DNA of 50,362 bases from Methanobacteriota archaeon (GTDB lineage: Archaea > Thermoplasmatota > Poseidoniia > Poseidoniales > Thalassarchaeaceae). The notes under the pieces are model-generated. The model made no database searches. It saw only the letters and a list, made by a program, of their open reading frames with translations, and had not been told where the DNA came from. The stretch lies in assembly GCA_002722735.1 (NCBI GenBank), contig PBMR01000010.1, positions 1 to 50,362 on the forward strand, in the 5' to 3' direction. Numbering within the stretch: the first letter of the stretch is position 1; each line of letters starts with the position of its first letter. Both the position numbers and the translations under genes were made by a program. Below are positions 1-41,350 of this stretch, one piece after another.

Positions 1-262
1 CCTGCCCCATCAGGTAGCCCTGGCCTGCGAACATCCCGTCCCGCGCCCCCCCGAAGACCTCGTCGACACCCCCGGGGTTGGGCCTGGCAGTGTCGATGTC
101 GATACCCACGAGGATCTCGTCGGGCAGCGATCGGAAGGACCAGTCGATGATGGTCGCGAGCGTGCCCACCGGCATCAGGACGTGGGCCGGGTAACTGTCG
201 CGCGCCTCCAAGGAGGCCCGATTGTACTCGGCTGCGGCCTCCAGCAGCCAGTCGGCGACCAT
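1..262 (-). CDS. Unidentified protein, N-terminal part only (runs off the window)
   Basis: An open frame on the minus strand starts at an ATG at 262 and continues past base 1; 87 residues are visible. It begins MVADWLLEAAAEYNRASLEA and later contains VGIDIDTARPNPGG. It lies 31 bases after the stop of the taw2-like gene on the same strand, so it is probably the third gene of a uvrC-taw2 transcript. GC content and codon use match those neighbours. The frame is also open upstream of this ATG into the end of the taw2 gene, so the start is a choice, not proven. I do not recognise the family and the visible part shows no signal peptide or membrane segment. Confidence 0.55.
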   Translation of the reverse strand, partial: MVADWLLEAAAEYNRASLEARDSYPAHVLMPVGTLATIIDWSFRSLPDEILVGIDIDTARPNPGGVDEVFGGARDGMFAGQGYLMGQ

Positions 263-293
263 GGGTCGTGGCGCGGGCGCCTCGACTTGAACG

Positions 294-1172
294 CTAGGCC
301 CGCGATACCCGCACGTCCAGCACCAGGTGGTCCCAGTGCGGGGCGTGGCTCTTCACTCGCGTTATGGCGAGCCTCTCGAGCGAGCAGCCCGGCTCTATGG
401 CGCCCAGCGAGGCCTCGACCTGCCCTGCCCAAGCCCCGTGGTCCTTAGCGTCACCCAGCCCGTGCACATGCAGCTCCCCACCCTCGGGCCTGAGCACCCC
501 GAGCGCGGGCGCGTATCCCCCCTCGGCGCTTGGCAGCAGCCCCAGCAGGACGCGGTCGGCGACCCCCGACAGCCCCCTCGAGGTCACACGGTTGTCGCCC
601 ACGTGAACCGTGCAGCGCCCCGCCACCCCGTTGGCCTCGAGGTTGCGGTCCAGGGCCAGTACCGCCTCGGGGTTCCACTCGCAGGCGTGGACGTGGGCCG
701 CGCCGCTGTGCACGAGCACGGGCAGAGAGTAGTAGCCGATCCCTGCGTACAGGTCCACGACGACCTCGCCTGCGCGCGACACCTGACCCATCCTCCTGCG
801 CTCGTTTACGTTGCCCGCAGAGAACATGCACTTGGTGAGGCGGTAGCCGTAGTCAACCCCGCTTTCGCGGCGGACCGCCCAGTCGTCTCCGCCGAGCAGC
901 ATCTCGACCCCGCTCTCGCGCATCTCTCCCGAGACCTCGCCCATCCTGCCGAGCCGGGACGCGCCCAGGCCGCCAGCCACAGCCCGCCAAAGCCCGTCCG
1001 AGCGCACCGCCTCCCAGCGCTCGTGCGCGAAGGCCGAGGACGGCAGCAGGGCCACGTCGTCGAAGCGCTCCCAGCGCCGGGGCAGGTCCTCGAGATGACC
1101 CTCGCTGGCAGCGCTCCCTAGCAGGCCGCTTACAGCGGCCCTGAGGCTTTCGTGGGGGTCTCTGCCGGGCAT
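294..1172 (-). CDS. taw2: tRNA wybutosine-pathway aminocarboxypropyl transferase, Taw2/TYW2 family
   Basis: 292 residues with a class I SAM-binding fold in the C-terminal two thirds. The motif DLYAGIGYYSLPVLVHSGAA (about residue 139) is the SAM-binding loop, followed by HACEWNPEAV, GDNR and the LGLLPS strand. This combination is typical of TYW2/Taw2, which transfers the 3-amino-3-carboxypropyl group of SAM to the modified G37 of archaeal and eukaryotic tRNA-Phe. Trm5 methyltransferase is the nearest alternative, but the CEWNP and GDNR sequences fit TYW2 better. The start ATG at 1172 lies 4 bases after the uvrC stop, so the two genes are probably co-transcribed. Expected to act in the cytosol on tRNA-Phe. 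Confidence 0.82.
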   Translation of the reverse strand: MPGRDPHESLRAAVSGLLGSAASEGHLEDLPRRWERFDDVALLPSSAFAHERWEAVRSDGLWRAVAGGLGASRLGRMGEVSGEMRESGVEMLLGGDDWAVRRESGVDYGYRLTKCMFSAGNVNERRRMGQVSRAGEVVVDLYAGIGYYSLPVLVHSGAAHVHACEWNPEAVLALDRNLEANGVAGRCTVHVGDNRVTSRGLSGVADRVLLGLLPSAEGGYAPALGVLRPEGGELHVHGLGDAKDHGAWAGQVEASLGAIEPGCSLERLAITRVKSHAPHWDHLVLDVRVSRA

Positions 1173-1176
1173 GGGC

Positions 1177-2904
1177 TCACCCGTTCATGTGGGAGTGAAC
1201 GCGCTCTGCCATCGCCTTGCCGATCCCCGGCACCTCGCGCAGCTCCTCCACGCTCGCGTGCCTGATGCCCTTGCGTCCCCCGAAGTGCCTCAGGAGGGAC
1301 TGGATCTTCTTCGCCCCCAGGCCCTCGACGGCCTCCAGCGGGTCGCCCAGCGAGCCCTTGTCGCGGCGCTTCCTGTGGTAGCGGTTGACGAAGCGATGAG
1401 CCTCGTCACGGGCGTGCACGAGCACCCTGCCGCGACGGTCGAGCAGGATGGGGTCCCGGCCAGCCATGTGCAGGCTCTCCTCCCTCTTGGCGAGCGCGGC
1501 GACCGGGAAGCGGCCCCCAAGGCCATGCCCCTCCAGCATGGACGCGACAGTCGAGAGGTGGGTCTCGCCCCCGTCCAGCAGCAGCAGGTCCGGCCAGCCC
1601 TCCTGGCGCTTGAGCCAGCGCTCGACGACCTCGGACATCATCCGCAGGTCGTCGACAGCGTCGGTCTTGACGCGATAGGTCCGGTACTCCTTCTTGGCCG
1701 GCCTGCCGTTGCGCATGACCACGCAGGCGCCCACTCGCTCCTCGCCCAGGATATGGGCCATGTCGAAGCAGACCAGGTAATTCAGGGACTCGAGGCCCAG
1801 CAGGAGCGCGCCGTCGTCAGCCGCGGACTGCTCGAGGCTGCCCGAGCGCCGCTTGGTGTGCCGCTGGGCCAGAACCTCGGCATTGCGATCGGCCATGCCC
1901 CTGAGCTTGGCGAGCTCACCGCGCTGCGGCACCCTGGCCTCGATGGCGCTGCCGCGCCTCTCGGACAGCCACGAGGCCAGCGCATCACCGATCGGCGCAG
2001 GCACCAACAGGGTGCGCGGCGGCTTGCGGTTCGCGTAGTGCTCAGCGAGCACCAGGGAGACCGAGTCCGCGACATCTCCCCTGTGTATCAGCGGATAGTC
2101 GACCTGACCCTGGATGATGCCGTCCTTGGCGTGGAGGATCACGAGGCATCCCGTATCGCCCTCGGAGGCGAAGCCGACGGCATCGCAGTCCTGGTAGAAG
2201 CGGCTGTGGATGACCTGCTGAGAGATCGTGCGCTGGACTGCGGCGATCATGTCGCGGGTGCGCGCTGCGCGCTCGTACTCGAGGCCCTCGGACGAGGCGT
2301 CCATCTCGGCCTGAAGCGCCCCGACGAGGACGGCCGCGTCCCCGTCGAGCACGCTGGTCGCCGCCCTGATGCGCTCCTCGTAGCCCTCGGGCTCGATGCA
2401 CGGCGCTGCGCACAGGCCGATGTGCATGGCCAGACAGCCCTGGGGCAGCAGCTCCGGGCAGTCTCTGATCCCGAACTGGCGCCTGAGCAGCTGGATCACG
2501 CGCTTGGCTGCCCCGACATCGGGGAACGGCCCCCACAGCCTGGCCCCCTCGGGCGGGTGGCGGGTGTAGAGGATGCGGGGATGATCCTCGCCGGTCAGGG
2601 CGATGAAAGGGTACGATTTGTCGTCCTTTAGGAGCGAGTTGTAGCGAGGCTTGTGTTTGCGAATAAGCTGGCGCTCGAGGATCAGGGCCTCCGACGGGCT
2701 CTGGGTGACGATGCAGTCGACCCTGTCCGAGTCCTCGACCAGACGGGGGACCATCTCGCGGTCGGGCCGGCCGGTGAAGTAGGATCTGACTCTAGAGCGC
2801 AGGTCGGAGGCCTTGCCGACGTACATCACACGATCGTCGCCTCTGCGGAAAAGATAGACTCCGGGCTTGTTAGGCAGCTCCAGATTGCTCGCGTCAACGG
2901 TCAT
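1177..2904 (-). CDS. uvrC: Excinuclease ABC subunit C
   Basis: 575 residues, usual UvrC length. The N-terminal GIY-YIG nuclease (about 12-90) shows PGVYLFRR and MYVGKASDLRSR. A UVR motif region (about 190-230) follows, then the RNase H-like endonuclease domain (about 370-490, LVCFDMAHILGEERVGACVV), then a helix-hairpin-helix end (VEGLGAKKIQSLLRHFGG, VPGIGKAMAERV). UvrC makes the two incisions in nucleotide excision repair and needs UvrA and UvrB, which are not in this window. This is a bacterial-type repair gene, as in several mesophilic archaea. The start ATG (2904-2902) overlaps the start ATG of the divergent ATPase gene (2903-2905), so any promoter must lie inside the other gene. Confidence 0.95.
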   Translation of the reverse strand: MTVDASNLELPNKPGVYLFRRGDDRVMYVGKASDLRSRVRSYFTGRPDREMVPRLVEDSDRVDCIVTQSPSEALILERQLIRKHKPRYNSLLKDDKSYPFIALTGEDHPRILYTRHPPEGARLWGPFPDVGAAKRVIQLLRRQFGIRDCPELLPQGCLAMHIGLCAAPCIEPEGYEERIRAATSVLDGDAAVLVGALQAEMDASSEGLEYERAARTRDMIAAVQRTISQQVIHSRFYQDCDAVGFASEGDTGCLVILHAKDGIIQGQVDYPLIHRGDVADSVSLVLAEHYANRKPPRTLLVPAPIGDALASWLSERRGSAIEARVPQRGELAKLRGMADRNAEVLAQRHTKRRSGSLEQSAADDGALLLGLESLNYLVCFDMAHILGEERVGACVVMRNGRPAKKEYRTYRVKTDAVDDLRMMSEVVERWLKRQEGWPDLLLLDGGETHLSTVASMLEGHGLGGRFPVAALAKREESLHMAGRDPILLDRRGRVLVHARDEAHRFVNRYHRKRRDKGSLGDPLEAVEGLGAKKIQSLLRHFGGRKGIRHASVEELREVPGIGKAMAERVHSHMNG

Positions 2905-5131
2905 GCCGGGTGATGCGCTGCAGGTGTACGCTCATGAACGCTGGTTTCGCCCGCGGGGCGTGCCGAGCGAGTCCCAACTGAGGATCCTTGCCCATCTCGC
3001 GCGCTTCGGCAGCGAGCTCGAGCAGGCCTGGGACGTCCCACGGGCGCTGTGCCTGCCGGGCATCGCCGAGGCCATAGGAGTCGTCAGGTCGGCCATACAC
3101 TCGTCCCTGAGAGAGCTCGAGTCAGCAGGCTACGTCACGACACGCACAACCCATGTCACGGGTGCCGGCTCGCGCCGTCGCAAGGTCGTGCACATTACCC
3201 AGGAGGGCAGGGAGGCCGCATCAGCCCAAGCACCTGCCCCTGCCCGCAGCGGCCATGCGACCGGCCCGTTGCCGGACACAACGCTGCTCCACGGGCGCGA
3301 GGACGAGGTCTCCGCGCTCTCCAAGCCCCTCACCGAGGGCGCCAGTGTCCTGCTCAACGGCCTGCCGGGAATCGGCAAGACCAGCCTGGCTCGAGCGGTC
3401 GCGGGCTCCCTGCTGGAAGCGGGCCGGAACGTGCGCTGGGCGACCTGCAACGCAGACACCGACGCGGCTGCCATCGCTGCCATGTGGCTCGGCGGCTCCG
3501 CCCCCTCCTCGCCCGATGCCATCGCAGCTGCCGTGGACTCCAAGCGCACGATCCTGGTCCTCGACGAGGCACAGCAGCTCAGCCCGCGCCACATCACGGG
3601 TATCGAGGAACTGCTCGGCGCGTGCTCGCGCACTCAGGCCGCCGTGCTCGCAGTCGTCCGCGCGCCCAACCCCTTCGACGAACTCTCCGGCTTCGAGGAG
3701 CACAGGCTCGATGGCCTGCCCCCCTCAAAGGCCACGCCGCTGCTCCCTGAGGACCTCGACGAAGCCATTGCCCTCGGCATCGCGGAGGCTCTGGGAGGCC
3801 ATCCCCTGGCCATGCGCCTGTGGTCTCCTGAGGACGTCTTGCCCGAGAGGGTCGAGGCCGTGCAATCCTACGTGGAGTCGACCGTGATTCGACGCCTGAG
3901 CGATTCGGGCAGCAACTCGCTCGACGAGCTGTGCCTCGCACCGCTGCCACTGACCGTCGGGGAGATGTTCGGCCCAGACGGCACCGAGGAGCTGGACGAG
4001 GCCGCTATCCTGCGCTGGACTCAGGCCATGGTCGAGCCCCATCACCTGATTCGCAACGTCAGAAGAGGATCTTGGTCCGATGACGATCTCTCCGACCTGC
4101 ACTCCGAGCAGGCAGCGCGGTGGTCCGCGCGGGAGGGCACCAGGGCACGCAGGATCGAGGCCCACCACCGCCTGAGTTCGGGTGGGGAACCTGACCCCGA
4201 GTGGGTTCTGGAGCACGTCCCGGCGATCGCAGGCGAGGACAGCGCTGCCGCAGCGGTGCTGATCGAGCAGGCCGTGGGAATGAGTGACGACGAGGGGCTG
4301 CGCGAGTGCGCCGCCGACATCGCACTCGAGCGCGGAGAGCCGGCAATAGCGGACGCCCACATCGAGAGGCTCGCGGAGGGCCCCCACAGGCACCTGCGCC
4401 TCGCACGCCTCGCCCGAATCCAAGGCGACTCCAAGCATGCCGACGAGTTCGAGCGACTCGCTCTGGACGGACTCGAGCCAGGGCAGAGGGCCAGGGCGAG
4501 CATCGCCTCCCTGGTCAGGCTCTACGATGATCGGCTGCCTGGGCCTATCTCCCCCTCACTCGCAAAGGAGATCTTGGGTGGCATCGGCTCAGTCGAGCTG
4601 TCCGACTTGAATCCCGACGACCGCAGCGTCGCCTCGCTCTCACTGGACCTGCTTCGTCACACCGTTGCATTGGAGATTGGCGACATGTCTGCTGCAGCCT
4701 CCGCTCGGAGCGCCCTCGAGTCGAGGCTCGGCCCCGAACACCCCCACCTCTCTGCTCTGGACCTGCGAGCGAGGCTTGCAGCGAGGACGGGGGGCAAGCC
4801 CTCCGACGACGCCCTTGATACTGCTCGCGAACGCATCGAGTCCTCAGATGACCCCCTGGACCGCCTCCGCACCATTCACCTGGCTCTGGGGGCCTGCGGC
4901 CCCGACCCGTCGAGTTGGCTTCGCGAGGCCCATTCGAGATCCTCGCCAGGGATGCTGCGAGACGACCTCGCCTCCCACAGGCGGCTGACGGGCCAGTGGT
5001 GGTTCTGGAGGGGCGTGCTCGAGCCCGAGAACCGACTCTCGCACTGGCGTGAGGCCATAGGGAGGTTGAGGTCGGCGGAGTGCAATAACGCAGCTGAGGA
5101 CCTGATCGGACGCCTTTCCAAGGCGCTCTAG
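2903..5131 (+). CDS. Winged-helix / P-loop (STAND-like) ATPase, probable transcriptional regulator
   Basis: 742 residues from ATG 2903; an in-frame ATG at 2867 would add 12 residues but lies inside uvrC. Residues about 20-105 look like a MarR/LysR-style winged helix (SESQLRILAHLARFG, SAIHSSLRELESAGYVTTR, RRRKVVHITQEGREAA). A linker leads to a P-loop ATPase: Walker A GLPGIGKTSL at 153-162, Walker B ILVLDEAQQ at 217-225. The remaining about 400 residues are helical, acidic and TPR-like in feel, without clean repeats. This order (DNA-binding, NTPase, helical sensor) is that of STAND/NB-ARC regulators. The signal and targets cannot be read from the sequence. It is head-to-head with uvrC, converges with the RAM gene sharing the stop tetranucleotide CTAG, and shares the high GC of the left end. 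Confidence 0.7.
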   Translation: MPGDALQVYAHERWFRPRGVPSESQLRILAHLARFGSELEQAWDVPRALCLPGIAEAIGVVRSAIHSSLRELESAGYVTTRTTHVTGAGSRRRKVVHITQEGREAASAQAPAPARSGHATGPLPDTTLLHGREDEVSALSKPLTEGASVLLNGLPGIGKTSLARAVAGSLLEAGRNVRWATCNADTDAAAIAAMWLGGSAPSSPDAIAAAVDSKRTILVLDEAQQLSPRHITGIEELLGACSRTQAAVLAVVRAPNPFDELSGFEEHRLDGLPPSKATPLLPEDLDEAIALGIAEALGGHPLAMRLWSPEDVLPERVEAVQSYVESTVIRRLSDSGSNSLDELCLAPLPLTVGEMFGPDGTEELDEAAILRWTQAMVEPHHLIRNVRRGSWSDDDLSDLHSEQAARWSAREGTRARRIEAHHRLSSGGEPDPEWVLEHVPAIAGEDSAAAAVLIEQAVGMSDDEGLRECAADIALERGEPAIADAHIERLAEGPHRHLRLARLARIQGDSKHADEFERLALDGLEPGQRARASIASLVRLYDDRLPGPISPSLAKEILGGIGSVELSDLNPDDRSVASLSLDLLRHTVALEIGDMSAAASARSALESRLGPEHPHLSALDLRARLAARTGGKPSDDALDTARERIESSDDPLDRLRTIHLALGACGPDPSSWLREAHSRSSPGMLRDDLASHRRLTGQWWFWRGVLEPENRLSHWREAIGRLRSAECNNAAEDLIGRLSKAL

Positions 5132-38087: not shown

Positions 38088-38196
38088 GTTGCCGCAACAA
38101 TGCGATGGCTAATGAACTACACGAAATCGAATCTACGAATACCTCGTTGAGACTACAGAACAGGTTTGAAGTACGCCAGTCGTTGCCCTTTGAGTG

Positions 38197-39210
38197 ATGG
38201 CAGATTCTCCGATATCCCATCATTCCCCCGACGGCATCCAGCAGCCACCTCAGACTGACCCCTCGAACGAGCAGCGTGCTCAGATGGAGCAGGCGTATCA
38301 GCAAATTCAGCGAAAGATGCGAATCAGCAAGATGGACGAGGGAATCAAGCACAAGGTGATGGTTCTCTCAGGCAAGGGAGGGGTCGGCAAATCCACCGTT
38401 GCCACCGGGCTCGCCCTGTCTCTGGCCCGTCAAGGAAAGAAAGTGGGGCTGATGGACATCGACATCACCGGCCCGAACGTCCCCAAGATGCTAGGACTAG
38501 GGGATGCCGACCTCAATGTGGAGGATGGCCAGATTTTCCCTGCTATCGGCCCACATGGCCTGAAGGTAATCTCGATGGCCTTCCTGTTGGATGGCCCTGA
38601 TACGCCAGTGATCTGGCGTGGTCCTATCAAGCTCGGTGCCATACAGCAGTTCATCGGCGACGTGGCTTGGGGGGACCTTGACGCCTTGGTAATCGACTTC
38701 CCCCCGGGTACCGGCGATGAGCCGTTGACCGTCAGCCAGAGCATGCCGGGGATAGACGGGGTCGTCATCGTGACAACCCCCCAGGAGGTCGCACTACTCG
38801 ACAGCCGCAAGTCGATTAACTTCGCCAAGACGATCTCCTTACCCATCCTCGGTGTGATAGAGAACATGAGGGGCTACACAATTCGAGGGACTGCGGAGCC
38901 AAACACCAAGGTCTCAGTGATTGGGCCGAGCGGCGTCCCACTCGAATGCAATACGGATGAGGGGGGCAACTGGACCCTTACTCTTGACGTCTTCAAGTCA
39001 GGCGGTGGCGAGGCGTCCTCGATCGATCTCGAAGTACCCTTCCTAGGCTCACTGCCATTCGATCCCGGCATCGTCAGAGGGGGTGATGACGGTGTCCACC
39101 GAATCATCGCCGACCCAGAAGGGGAGACTGCTCGGGCCTTCGATTCCATAGTCGCACGAATCACCGAAGAGCTCGAGGGCGGTTCGGACCAATCGCTCAG
39201 AATCACTTGA
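38197..39210 (+). CDS. Mrp/NBP35-type P-loop ATPase with Ig-like segment replacing the CxxC motif
   Basis: 337 residues from ATG 38197; a GTG at 38194 gives one more. Deviant Walker A SGKGGVGKSTVATGLALSLA (about 58-77), MDIDITGPNVPKMLG, the switch region VIDFPPGTGDEPLTVSQ and the TTPQEVALLDSRKSINF block are canonical Mrp. In Mrp/NBP35 the strand ending VIENM is followed by a CPHC-type motif that bridges a 4Fe-4S cluster in the dimer. Here it is followed by about 40 residues (229-268) including RGTAEPNTKVSVIGPSG and NTDEGGNWTLTLD, then the fold resumes with VPFLGSLPFDPGIVRGGDDG. The insert looks like half of a bacterial Ig-like (Big) domain. Only one Cys is in the insert, so cluster scaffolding or transfer as usually described is doubtful. 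Confidence 0.92.
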   Translation: MADSPISHHSPDGIQQPPQTDPSNEQRAQMEQAYQQIQRKMRISKMDEGIKHKVMVLSGKGGVGKSTVATGLALSLARQGKKVGLMDIDITGPNVPKMLGLGDADLNVEDGQIFPAIGPHGLKVISMAFLLDGPDTPVIWRGPIKLGAIQQFIGDVAWGDLDALVIDFPPGTGDEPLTVSQSMPGIDGVVIVTTPQEVALLDSRKSINFAKTISLPILGVIENMRGYTIRGTAEPNTKVSVIGPSGVPLECNTDEGGNWTLTLDVFKSGGGEASSIDLEVPFLGSLPFDPGIVRGGDDGVHRIIADPEGETARAFDSIVARITEELEGGSDQSLRIT

Positions 39211-39265: not shown

Positions 39266-41350
39266 ATGCCTGCTGATACCGGGATATACATAACTTGGGT
39301 GACGGGAGCAATTCTGATCAGCATCGCTATGATTCCTATCTTCAAGCCGCCATATGCCAAAGTCAGCATGGACGGCTTCATCGACATGTTCAGGCGCTAC
39401 TGGGCCCATATGATAGTGGTCTTCTCAGTATACCTGTGGAAAGACGTGCTGGATGGCTTGGACCGCATTCTAATGGCAAATACACAACTCGACATGACTC
39501 CCCTCGTATATGCGGTAGAGGGGGATATCGTCCTGTGGATCCAAGAGGGTCTGAGGAACGAATTCCTCGATATCGCTCTGACGCACTTCTATGTGATGGG
39601 TTTCATGACCGCGACCTTCGCATCCTTCGTTTACCCCATTTACTTCGATGATAGACACATGGCTGATCGAGTCTCTCTCTCGATGTTCTGGGCCTACCTC
39701 CTTGCAATCCCATTCTACCTATTCCTCAACGTCAGGGTCTCCGGGAATTACATCCCCGCCATGGAGACCATCGCATACGACCTAACACCTGAGATCCACA
39801 ACTGGTTCAACCGAATCGACCCCTTCACCAACGGGATGCCAAGTCTCCATATTGGTCTGCCATTTGCGATTTGGCTGTCGATGTATCGTTGGGACGAAGA
39901 CGGTAGGTGGAGGAAATACCGCATATTCCTCGTTTTCTTCATGATGATTACGGCATTTTCGATTCTCTATCTCGGAATTCACTGGATCGTGGACATAATC
40001 GGGGGCATGGTGATTGCAATCTTGGCAGTCAATATGACTGCAAGGACCCACGGGCCTATCTGGCGCGTTGCCGACGAGCGACTGTTCACCCGACGTCTCG
40101 CGAGAGCCCTCGACGATCCCCGGACTTCGATTCGTCGGACACTGCACGCTGCTTCCTCCCTGTTGGACCCAATCAGGGAGCCGGGCAAGGAGCAGACAGA
40201 GGCCTTCATCACAGCACTGATCGTGCTGACTGGCTCGGTTCTACTGTGGGATGCCACCCATCAGAACTTCACGATCGAGGAGGCCGAGTCACCGACCTCT
40301 GCATCTGGCTCCGGGGAGTGGCTTGTCGGCGTAGAAGAGGCTGCAGATGGGGGCGTGTCAATAACGGCATGGAACATCACTTCGCAGAGCAACCGAACGG
40401 TAGGGGGTGCGCAATGGGCTCAGGCGCCCCAAGTCATTTCCTCTGGAACAAGCTTCGTTGTCCGAGATGAGCATAGGCTCGATTACTTCATGCATGACAA
40501 TGGTGCGAACGCCCTTCTACCGGTCTTCAGCGAGCAAACCGACTTGCCCATACTCGATCTCGCACTGGGAATCAACCAAGGCGGTGAGACGCTAATCATC
40601 ATCCTCATGGAAGATGGCGTGTATCTGATGGATGAATCGCAGCAGGAGACTATGATGCCCATGGGGAGAATCAACTCCACAGTCCTCGCCTCCTCCGAAT
40701 CGCTCGTCGCGTGGTCCGAGCCCACCGAATCAGGCCCGGTGGTCAACATCACCTCCATCGAGTCGCAGTTGACCATCACCATACCCCTCGATCCAAGGGC
40801 AGAAGAGAGGGCTGAGCAGTCACTGGTTGACTCGGGACTGGTTTTCGACTACAACAACTCCACAGTGATAGACTTGGCAATGGACTCCCACTGGGTTGTG
40901 GCTGTTGTCGACGTGGGTCCGGTGAATCGAACACTGCTGATAGATACGCTCACCATCAATCAGTCCCTGCTATCCAATCCCAGATGGGACTCATCCTCCC
41001 CCAGCATCTCGAATGACCGATTGGCATTCCTGCAAGTCACAAGGGACAATCCCACGGCACCCACCAATGATCTCACGAGGAACAATGACGTATACGTCTT
41101 TGACTTGGTCGAGGGGGGCCTGATTCAACTGACCCACGACGAGGACGTCGATCAAGCACAGCCCCAGATGCTGGTTGATGGTGTGGCCTGGGTGGCACAC
41201 AATGAGGATGGTACCGTGGAAGTTGTCGTCCACTCCTTCGGGGAGACCATCGACCCGTACTCGTCCCTGCTCCTGCAAGCATCAGTCATGATGCTATTGC
41301 CCCTTCTGTTCGTTTGGGCGCAGCAGTCAGCCTCCCGGAAGGAAGGCTGA
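39266..41350 (+). CDS. PAP2-superfamily membrane phosphatase fused to an extracellular beta-propeller-like domain
   Basis: 694 residues. The first about 260 residues hold six hydrophobic helices and the PAP2 signature: NGMPSLHIGLPFAIWLSMYR (catalytic His region) and LGIHWIVDIIGGMVIAILAV (second His and Asp). The pattern resembles inositol-phosphoryl or Aur1-like PAP2 proteins. After a basic cytosolic stretch there is one helix at about 312-328 (AFITALIVLTGSVLLW), then about 330 residues of strand-rich, NxS/T-rich sequence with repeat phrases such as NDRLAFLQVTR and DVYVFDLVEGGLIQLTHDED, like TolB/WD-type propeller blades, and a final helix (SVMMLLPLLFVWAQQS). It probably acts on phospholipid head groups or polyprenyl phosphates at the membrane. 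Stop abuts the nadA stop (TGATCA). Confidence 0.78.
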   Translation: MPADTGIYITWVTGAILISIAMIPIFKPPYAKVSMDGFIDMFRRYWAHMIVVFSVYLWKDVLDGLDRILMANTQLDMTPLVYAVEGDIVLWIQEGLRNEFLDIALTHFYVMGFMTATFASFVYPIYFDDRHMADRVSLSMFWAYLLAIPFYLFLNVRVSGNYIPAMETIAYDLTPEIHNWFNRIDPFTNGMPSLHIGLPFAIWLSMYRWDEDGRWRKYRIFLVFFMMITAFSILYLGIHWIVDIIGGMVIAILAVNMTARTHGPIWRVADERLFTRRLARALDDPRTSIRRTLHAASSLLDPIREPGKEQTEAFITALIVLTGSVLLWDATHQNFTIEEAESPTSASGSGEWLVGVEEAADGGVSITAWNITSQSNRTVGGAQWAQAPQVISSGTSFVVRDEHRLDYFMHDNGANALLPVFSEQTDLPILDLALGINQGGETLIIILMEDGVYLMDESQQETMMPMGRINSTVLASSESLVAWSEPTESGPVVNITSIESQLTITIPLDPRAEERAEQSLVDSGLVFDYNNSTVIDLAMDSHWVVAVVDVGPVNRTLLIDTLTINQSLLSNPRWDSSSPSISNDRLAFLQVTRDNPTAPTNDLTRNNDVYVFDLVEGGLIQLTHDEDVDQAQPQMLVDGVAWVAHNEDGTVEVVVHSFGETIDPYSSLLLQASVMMLLPLLFVWAQQSASRKEG

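Follow-up and report, generated by a model that had tools for sequence, protein, structure and literature searches.

Introduction

In the PAP2 superfamily, the histidine of motif C3 acts as the nucleophile, the histidine of motif C2 protonates the leaving group and an aspartate supports the nucleophilic histidine. The classical signature is given as KX6RP-PSGH-SRX5HX3D in the part of PMC6591222 available to us. Among the superfamily members that handle phosphodiesters, the sphingomyelin synthases are described in sections of PMC8648842 as using a His-His-Asp triad, and sections of PMC5798408 and PMC8648842 describe them as having no C1 and a family motif in loop 1/2.

Here, we describe a PAP2-type protein from a window of 50,362 nucleotides (the whole stretch of DNA analysed) belonging to a Poseidoniales (Marine Group II) genome. 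Members of Marine Group II are abundant in surface seawater yet hardly any have been cultured, and their membrane and surface chemistry is therefore little known. An enzyme–propeller fusion that is fixed, occurs once per genome where found and is shared by two families would name a concrete lipid reaction at this surface. It is also a natural case of a PAP2 protein in which the catalytic triad is kept and both of the classical phosphate-gripping arginines are absent.

Domain Architecture

The gene is an open reading frame at 39266-41350 of the forward strand, with an ATG start and 694 codons for amino acids, that combines a PAP2_3-type core, a predicted external beta-propeller and a C-terminal membrane helix. 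Its parts are as follows.

39266..40042, forward strand: membrane core, residues 1-259, about seven helices (Pfam, low-pLDDT helices, loop charges)
40190..40258, forward strand: membrane helix entering the outer domain, residues 309-331 (hydropathy, AlphaFold2)
40298..41239, forward strand: predicted external beta-propeller, residues 345-658, seven blades by strand grouping (AlphaFold2, Foldseek, VIA-align 2)
41255..41344, forward strand: C-terminal membrane helix, residues 664-693 (AlphaFold2; hydropathy peak at 667-685)

The core was assigned by sequence, because its AlphaFold2 prediction was of low confidence whether the protein was modelled whole or the core alone. In the whole-protein model, built with 23 alignment rows from named relatives, pLDDT was <50 for nearly all of residues 1-344; residues 1-335 alone gave a mean pLDDT of 40.8, a pTM of 0.26 and no usable core fold. 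A scan of viral contigs for further alignment rows returned zero relatives. In the window protein, residues 88-255 matched the Pfam model PAP2_3 (PF14378; E 3.8e-12, 46.8 bits against a curated cut-off of 27) and residues 183-262 matched PAP2 (PF01569; E 1.1e-8, 35.3 bits against 27.2), while a match to PAP2_C was weak and under the cut-off. When 25 members were scanned, PAP2_3 and PAP2 each matched 24. We read residues ~1-260 as a PAP2 membrane core on the basis of these matches. The initial annotation had proposed a six-helix PAP2 enzyme and quoted the motifs MPSLHIGL and LGIHWIVDIIGG. Both motifs are present in the translation of 39266-41350 and the family assignment holds, but the helix count does not: the predicted helices and the charges of the loops are consistent with seven, the extra one being at the N-terminus.

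The second half of the window protein had zero Pfam matches. A sequence search of solved structures gave a single match for the window protein (E 0.93) and none for a 25-row profile. The AlphaFold2 model was confident for the outer domain, which rules out a disordered tail: the domain is all-strand, with 27 strands at residues 345-657 and 10-residue blocks mostly at pLDDT 70-89. Grouping the DSSP strands of the model ourselves, we counted seven blades, of which six are four-stranded and the last three-stranded; a short helix (514-522) separates blades 4 and 5. Foldseek found 686 PDB matches at E <=0.001, and TolB, acylaminoacyl peptidases, Kelch and WD40 propellers were among the matches listed. 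On re-alignment with VIA-align 2, the best match was RbBP5 (Z 22.5, rmsd 3.1 A over about 270 residues), and the open-velcro propeller of the Pyrococcus trilobed protease (2gop) reached Z 21.5. The VIA-align 2 rows listed span almost only residues 338-667 with PAP2 structures absent, so that they are no test of the core. The model predicts that residues 345-658 fold as a beta-propeller with mostly four-stranded blades. A strand-rich, propeller-like outer part and a closing helix, as initially annotated, were thus all recovered, together with a blade number that the annotation had left to structure prediction.

No significant Pfam model was found for the outer domain in the window protein or in the 25 members. 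Of the TolB, DPPIV_N and WD40 sequence families, only DPPIV_N matched, at best with E 0.06 and in two of the 25, and the other outer-domain matches were single and weak. Only the PAP2 models matched repeatedly and significantly across the 25 members, which speaks against a known minor extension of PAP2 proteins.

Orientation in the Membrane

The hydropathy profile, together with the helices predicted, suggests that the core has seven helices, with a further helix at ~309-331 leading into the propeller and the helix at 664-693 leading out of it. Hydropathy and most loop charges agree with a polytopic core whose active site is outside, for which the predicted core structure is of low confidence. 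The predicted inner loops 27-47 and 259-310 were net positive in all 25 aligned relatives and the inner loop 208-219 in 20 of them; the predicted inner loop 126-135 was slightly negative in 24 of 25, against this topology. The C1-C2 loop and the outer domain were net negative in 25 of 25. In the window protein, the outer domain holds 51 acidic versus 11 basic residues, and residues 335-662 contain eight sequons. The expectation from 5000 shuffles that kept the composition is 3.0, and 0.3% of the shuffles reached eight. An STT3-type oligosaccharyltransferase match is present in the same genome. The open frame containing this STT3/AglB match (G000:C15:43108-44310, L097) runs to 3197 residues, an unusual length for an oligosaccharyltransferase.

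Given the loop charges and the acidic, sequon-rich outer domain, the propeller most likely lies outside the cell, on the same face of the membrane as the active-site motifs of the core, with a membrane helix at each end. The outside-facing and glycosylation-prone character proposed for this domain earlier is supported by the charges across the 25 relatives and the sequon excess, respectively. As both of its ends are anchored in the membrane, the propeller is unlikely to stray far from the membrane surface and might cover the active site.

Occurrence in Poseidoniales

We counted matches spanning both core and propeller in a wider draw of 389 genomes of the phylum. Of the 127 Poseidoniales genomes, 105 carried the full fusion (46 of 56 in family f1 and 59 of 71 in family f2), compared with none of the 262 other genomes of the phylum. 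Recurrence of the full-length frame on this scale, at loci from many separate public assemblies, rules out a chance frame or an assembly artefact. At least eight of the 22 Poseidoniales genomes without the full fusion had a partial match (G011, G029, G034, G045, G053, G094, G134 and G418), and several partial matches were short frames apparently truncated where a contig stops. Genera g7 and g20 had zero matches in two of two genomes each. A relative was detected in 56 of 60 related genomes, a figure that includes the paralogue described below.

Used alone as a query, the outer domain matched a single time in each of 43 genomes out of 194, all in f1 or f2 (43 of 48), and in none of the 146 genomes outside these families. 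At this sensitivity it was therefore not seen apart from the fusion. Beyond the phylum, the searches covered plasmids, viral contigs and one genome-contig scan reaching close relatives only. Among plasmids, the full query matched 12 records, none of which covered 80% and the 10 listed of which matched the core only; the outer domain alone had no plasmid match.

In a phylogenetic tree of 36 cores, the 25 fused cores fell on one side of one branch (support 99/96). Four paralogues formed a separate group (100/99), drawn among unfused Thermoplasmatota cores. The tree, from which L094 was left out, contains several long-branched rows and its root serves for drawing only; thus, one fusion event that preceded the separation of the two families is likely, short of proof. 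PAP2 enzymes and beta-propellers are both known kinds of protein, and it is their joint architecture that appears new. The initial annotation had called the arrangement unfamiliar. The outer domain has no Pfam match at a significant score, and no description of the fusion was found in the literature searched, including the available part of PMC12419801.

Two further PAP2_3 proteins are encoded in the same genome, namely a paralogue of 468 amino acids and a plain protein of 259 amino acids. The paralogue (P0002, L002; L071:2443-3855, C8 of the same genome) was read in both families. It has a core of the same family followed by a helix, an outer strand-rich segment and a final helix, as far as its sequence can be read, but its outer domain is much shorter with no visible likeness to the propeller, and in the tree its core falls outside the fused group. 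Perhaps an outer domain and a closing helix were added to a PAP2_3 core twice in this lineage, which would make the arrangement look less accidental. The gene of the plain protein (L076:1252-2031, also C8) is followed by an open reading frame on the opposite strand that reads like a phosphate transporter.

The gene neighbourhood was kept at most loci of both families: Mrp lies on one flank, and NadA and Bud32, whose order varies, occupy the other. These neighbours give no pointer to lipid metabolism. Mrp/NUBPL-type proteins usually carry a CXXC iron–sulphur motif after the ENMSGY position. The adjoining Mrp/NUBPL-type P-loop ATPase (38194-39210, forward strand) has a segment of ~45 residues there, seen in eight of eight aligned relatives with no conserved cysteine pair; in the window protein this segment weakly matches the Ig-like model Big_6 (E 0.012). 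At loci L055-L070, most family f2 loci have a gap of ~450 bases between the Mrp and PAP2 genes, and the nearby NadA homologue, where found, is only 25-29% identical to that of the window. GC content is 0.68-0.70 in positions 1-4000 of the window and 0.51-0.63 beyond 4 kb.

Catalytic Residues and Likely Reaction

The residues relevant to catalysis lie in three short stretches of the gene.

39464..39565, forward strand: predicted outer loop 2/3, residues 67-100, with R67, E85 and G86
39839..39850, forward strand: motif C2, PSLH, residues 192-195
39959..39994, forward strand: motif C3, SILYLGIHWIVD, residues 232-243, with I233 in place of the arginine of the canonical SRX5HX3D

Motifs were counted in 25 fused and 11 unfused cores; L094, which ends before C3, was left out, whereas L069 was retained and its many unread residues were entered as X. 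The triad is kept: H195 was present in 24 of 25 fused cores (one unread), and H239 and D243 in all 25 fused and all 11 unfused cores. The arginines of the classical phosphatase motifs are not. At the C3 arginine position the fused cores have Ile (23), Val (1) or an unread residue (1). The C1 arginine column, placed from two halobacterial relatives that retain the arginine, holds Gly in 25 of 25. The fused group thus has neither the C1 KX6RP nor the C3 arginine of classical PAP2 phosphatases. Since both are likewise absent from the unfused Thermoplasmatota relatives, the loss occurred before or apart from the fusion and is not tied to the propeller. Two other basic residues distinguish the fused cores: R67 (25 of 25 fused versus 0 of 11 unfused) and R183 in the predicted outer C1-C2 loop (23 of 25 fused, with one Gln and one unread, versus 1 of 11 unfused).

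We tentatively favour, at somewhat less than an even chance, a lipid phosphotransferase, or a lipid hydrolase that cleaves phosphodiesters, with an outward-facing active site that is covered or fed by the propeller. By analogy with the superfamily, His239 would attack the phosphorus of an outer-leaflet lipid, with His195 protonating the leaving group and Asp243 supporting His239. Because the two phosphomonoester-gripping arginines are absent, the more likely chemistry would be at a phosphodiester, as in the sphingomyelin and inositol phosphorylceramide (IPC) synthases, with the head group transferred or hydrolysed; R67 and R183 may take over part of the charge binding. The sphingomyelin synthases, which share the triad, have no C1 and carry the loop 1/2 motif, lead us to prefer a head-group transferase or a phospholipase-C-like reaction over a plain phosphatase, although the comparison remains one of analogy. 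According to a review (PMC10970773), trypanosomatid IPC synthases conserve an active-site arginine, so the absence of arginine is no mark of all head-group transferases.

The same motifs bear on a second reading, in which the protein is an ordinary outward PAP2 phosphatase, acting on a polyprenyl or dolichyl diphosphate carrier or an archaeal lipid phosphate, that the propeller recruits to the glycosylation or surface-layer machinery. The PAP2 Pfam match fits this reading, as does the C3 motif of a halobacterial relative, which aligns by sequence with PgpB-type phosphatases. Models of undecaprenyl-diphosphate phosphatases in NCBIfam also matched weakly (E 3.7e-7), with a score of 30 that is far below the cut-off of 229. 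Since the C1 and C3 arginines are absent throughout the fused group, we regard such a phosphatase as possible but rather unlikely.

Role of the Propeller

Core and propeller evolve at different rates. In rows from the other family, identity to the query was 49-54% in the core and 17-21% in the propeller, where 15 positions of residues 333-660 reached >=80% conservation. Fixed positions include W352, D528, N531, V548, R555, T623, D625 and P633, and no ligand site could be identified in the propeller. Such fast evolution would suit a conserved frame with a changing surface or partner, and the small number of fixed residues weakly argues against one conserved ligand. The terms "sensor" and "binding domain", applied to the outer part initially, are guesses.

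A large, acidic, sequon-rich and fast-evolving outer domain on a core without the two phosphate-binding arginines might instead mark a surface receptor, or an anchor of the surface layer, that is tethered in the membrane, with the propeller as the working part and the PAP2 core mainly as a scaffold. The slower evolution of the core and its fixed triad are unlike a dead scaffold, however, and make this quite improbable. The few fixed residues would also fit a propeller that bound no separate ligand and served dimerisation or enzyme stability. We consider this quite improbable as well, as the domain has been retained across most of the order despite its divergence and the unfused PAP2_3 relatives that were read manage without a propeller.

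Under the favoured reading of a lipid-active enzyme, the propeller over the active site would hold or select a polar partner, such as a glycan, a head-group donor or a surface protein. A more specific version, which we think unlikely as a whole, is an order-wide, externally gated head-group phosphotransferase in which phosphate binding has moved from the C1 and C3 arginines to R67/R183 and the doubly tethered seven-bladed propeller delivers or selects the polar partner at the cell surface.

Comparison with Known Systems

The closest family is PAP2_3 (PF14378), partly annotated as inositol phosphorylceramide synthase. Like its members, the fused protein has a core scoring over the cut-off, PSLH in C2 and HWxxD in C3. 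Two halobacterial members of this family differ from the fused protein in having no propeller or C-terminal helix and in retaining the C1 arginine.

With the sphingomyelin synthases, as far as their published descriptions were available, the fused protein has in common the His-His-Asp triad, the lack of C1 and, close to the N-terminal helices, an outer loop whose conservation is family-specific. No direct sequence match was found between the two, PAP2_C being weak and under the cut-off. We know of no sphingomyelin synthase with a propeller. The PgpB-type PAP2 phosphatases (E. coli PgpB, B. subtilis YodM) can be aligned in C2 and C3 through a halobacterial relative, but their C1 KX6RP and C3 arginine are missing from the fused protein and, to our knowledge, they too are without a propeller.

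The outer domain has the same predicted fold as the TolB, acylaminoacyl peptidase and WD40 propellers, including 2gop, with Z 20.5-22.5 in the rows listed and many rmsd values of 3-4 A over ~260-280 residues. Identity to these propellers is 7-15%, and, in contrast to them, the propeller described here is attached to a membrane enzyme and its last blade is apparently three-stranded.
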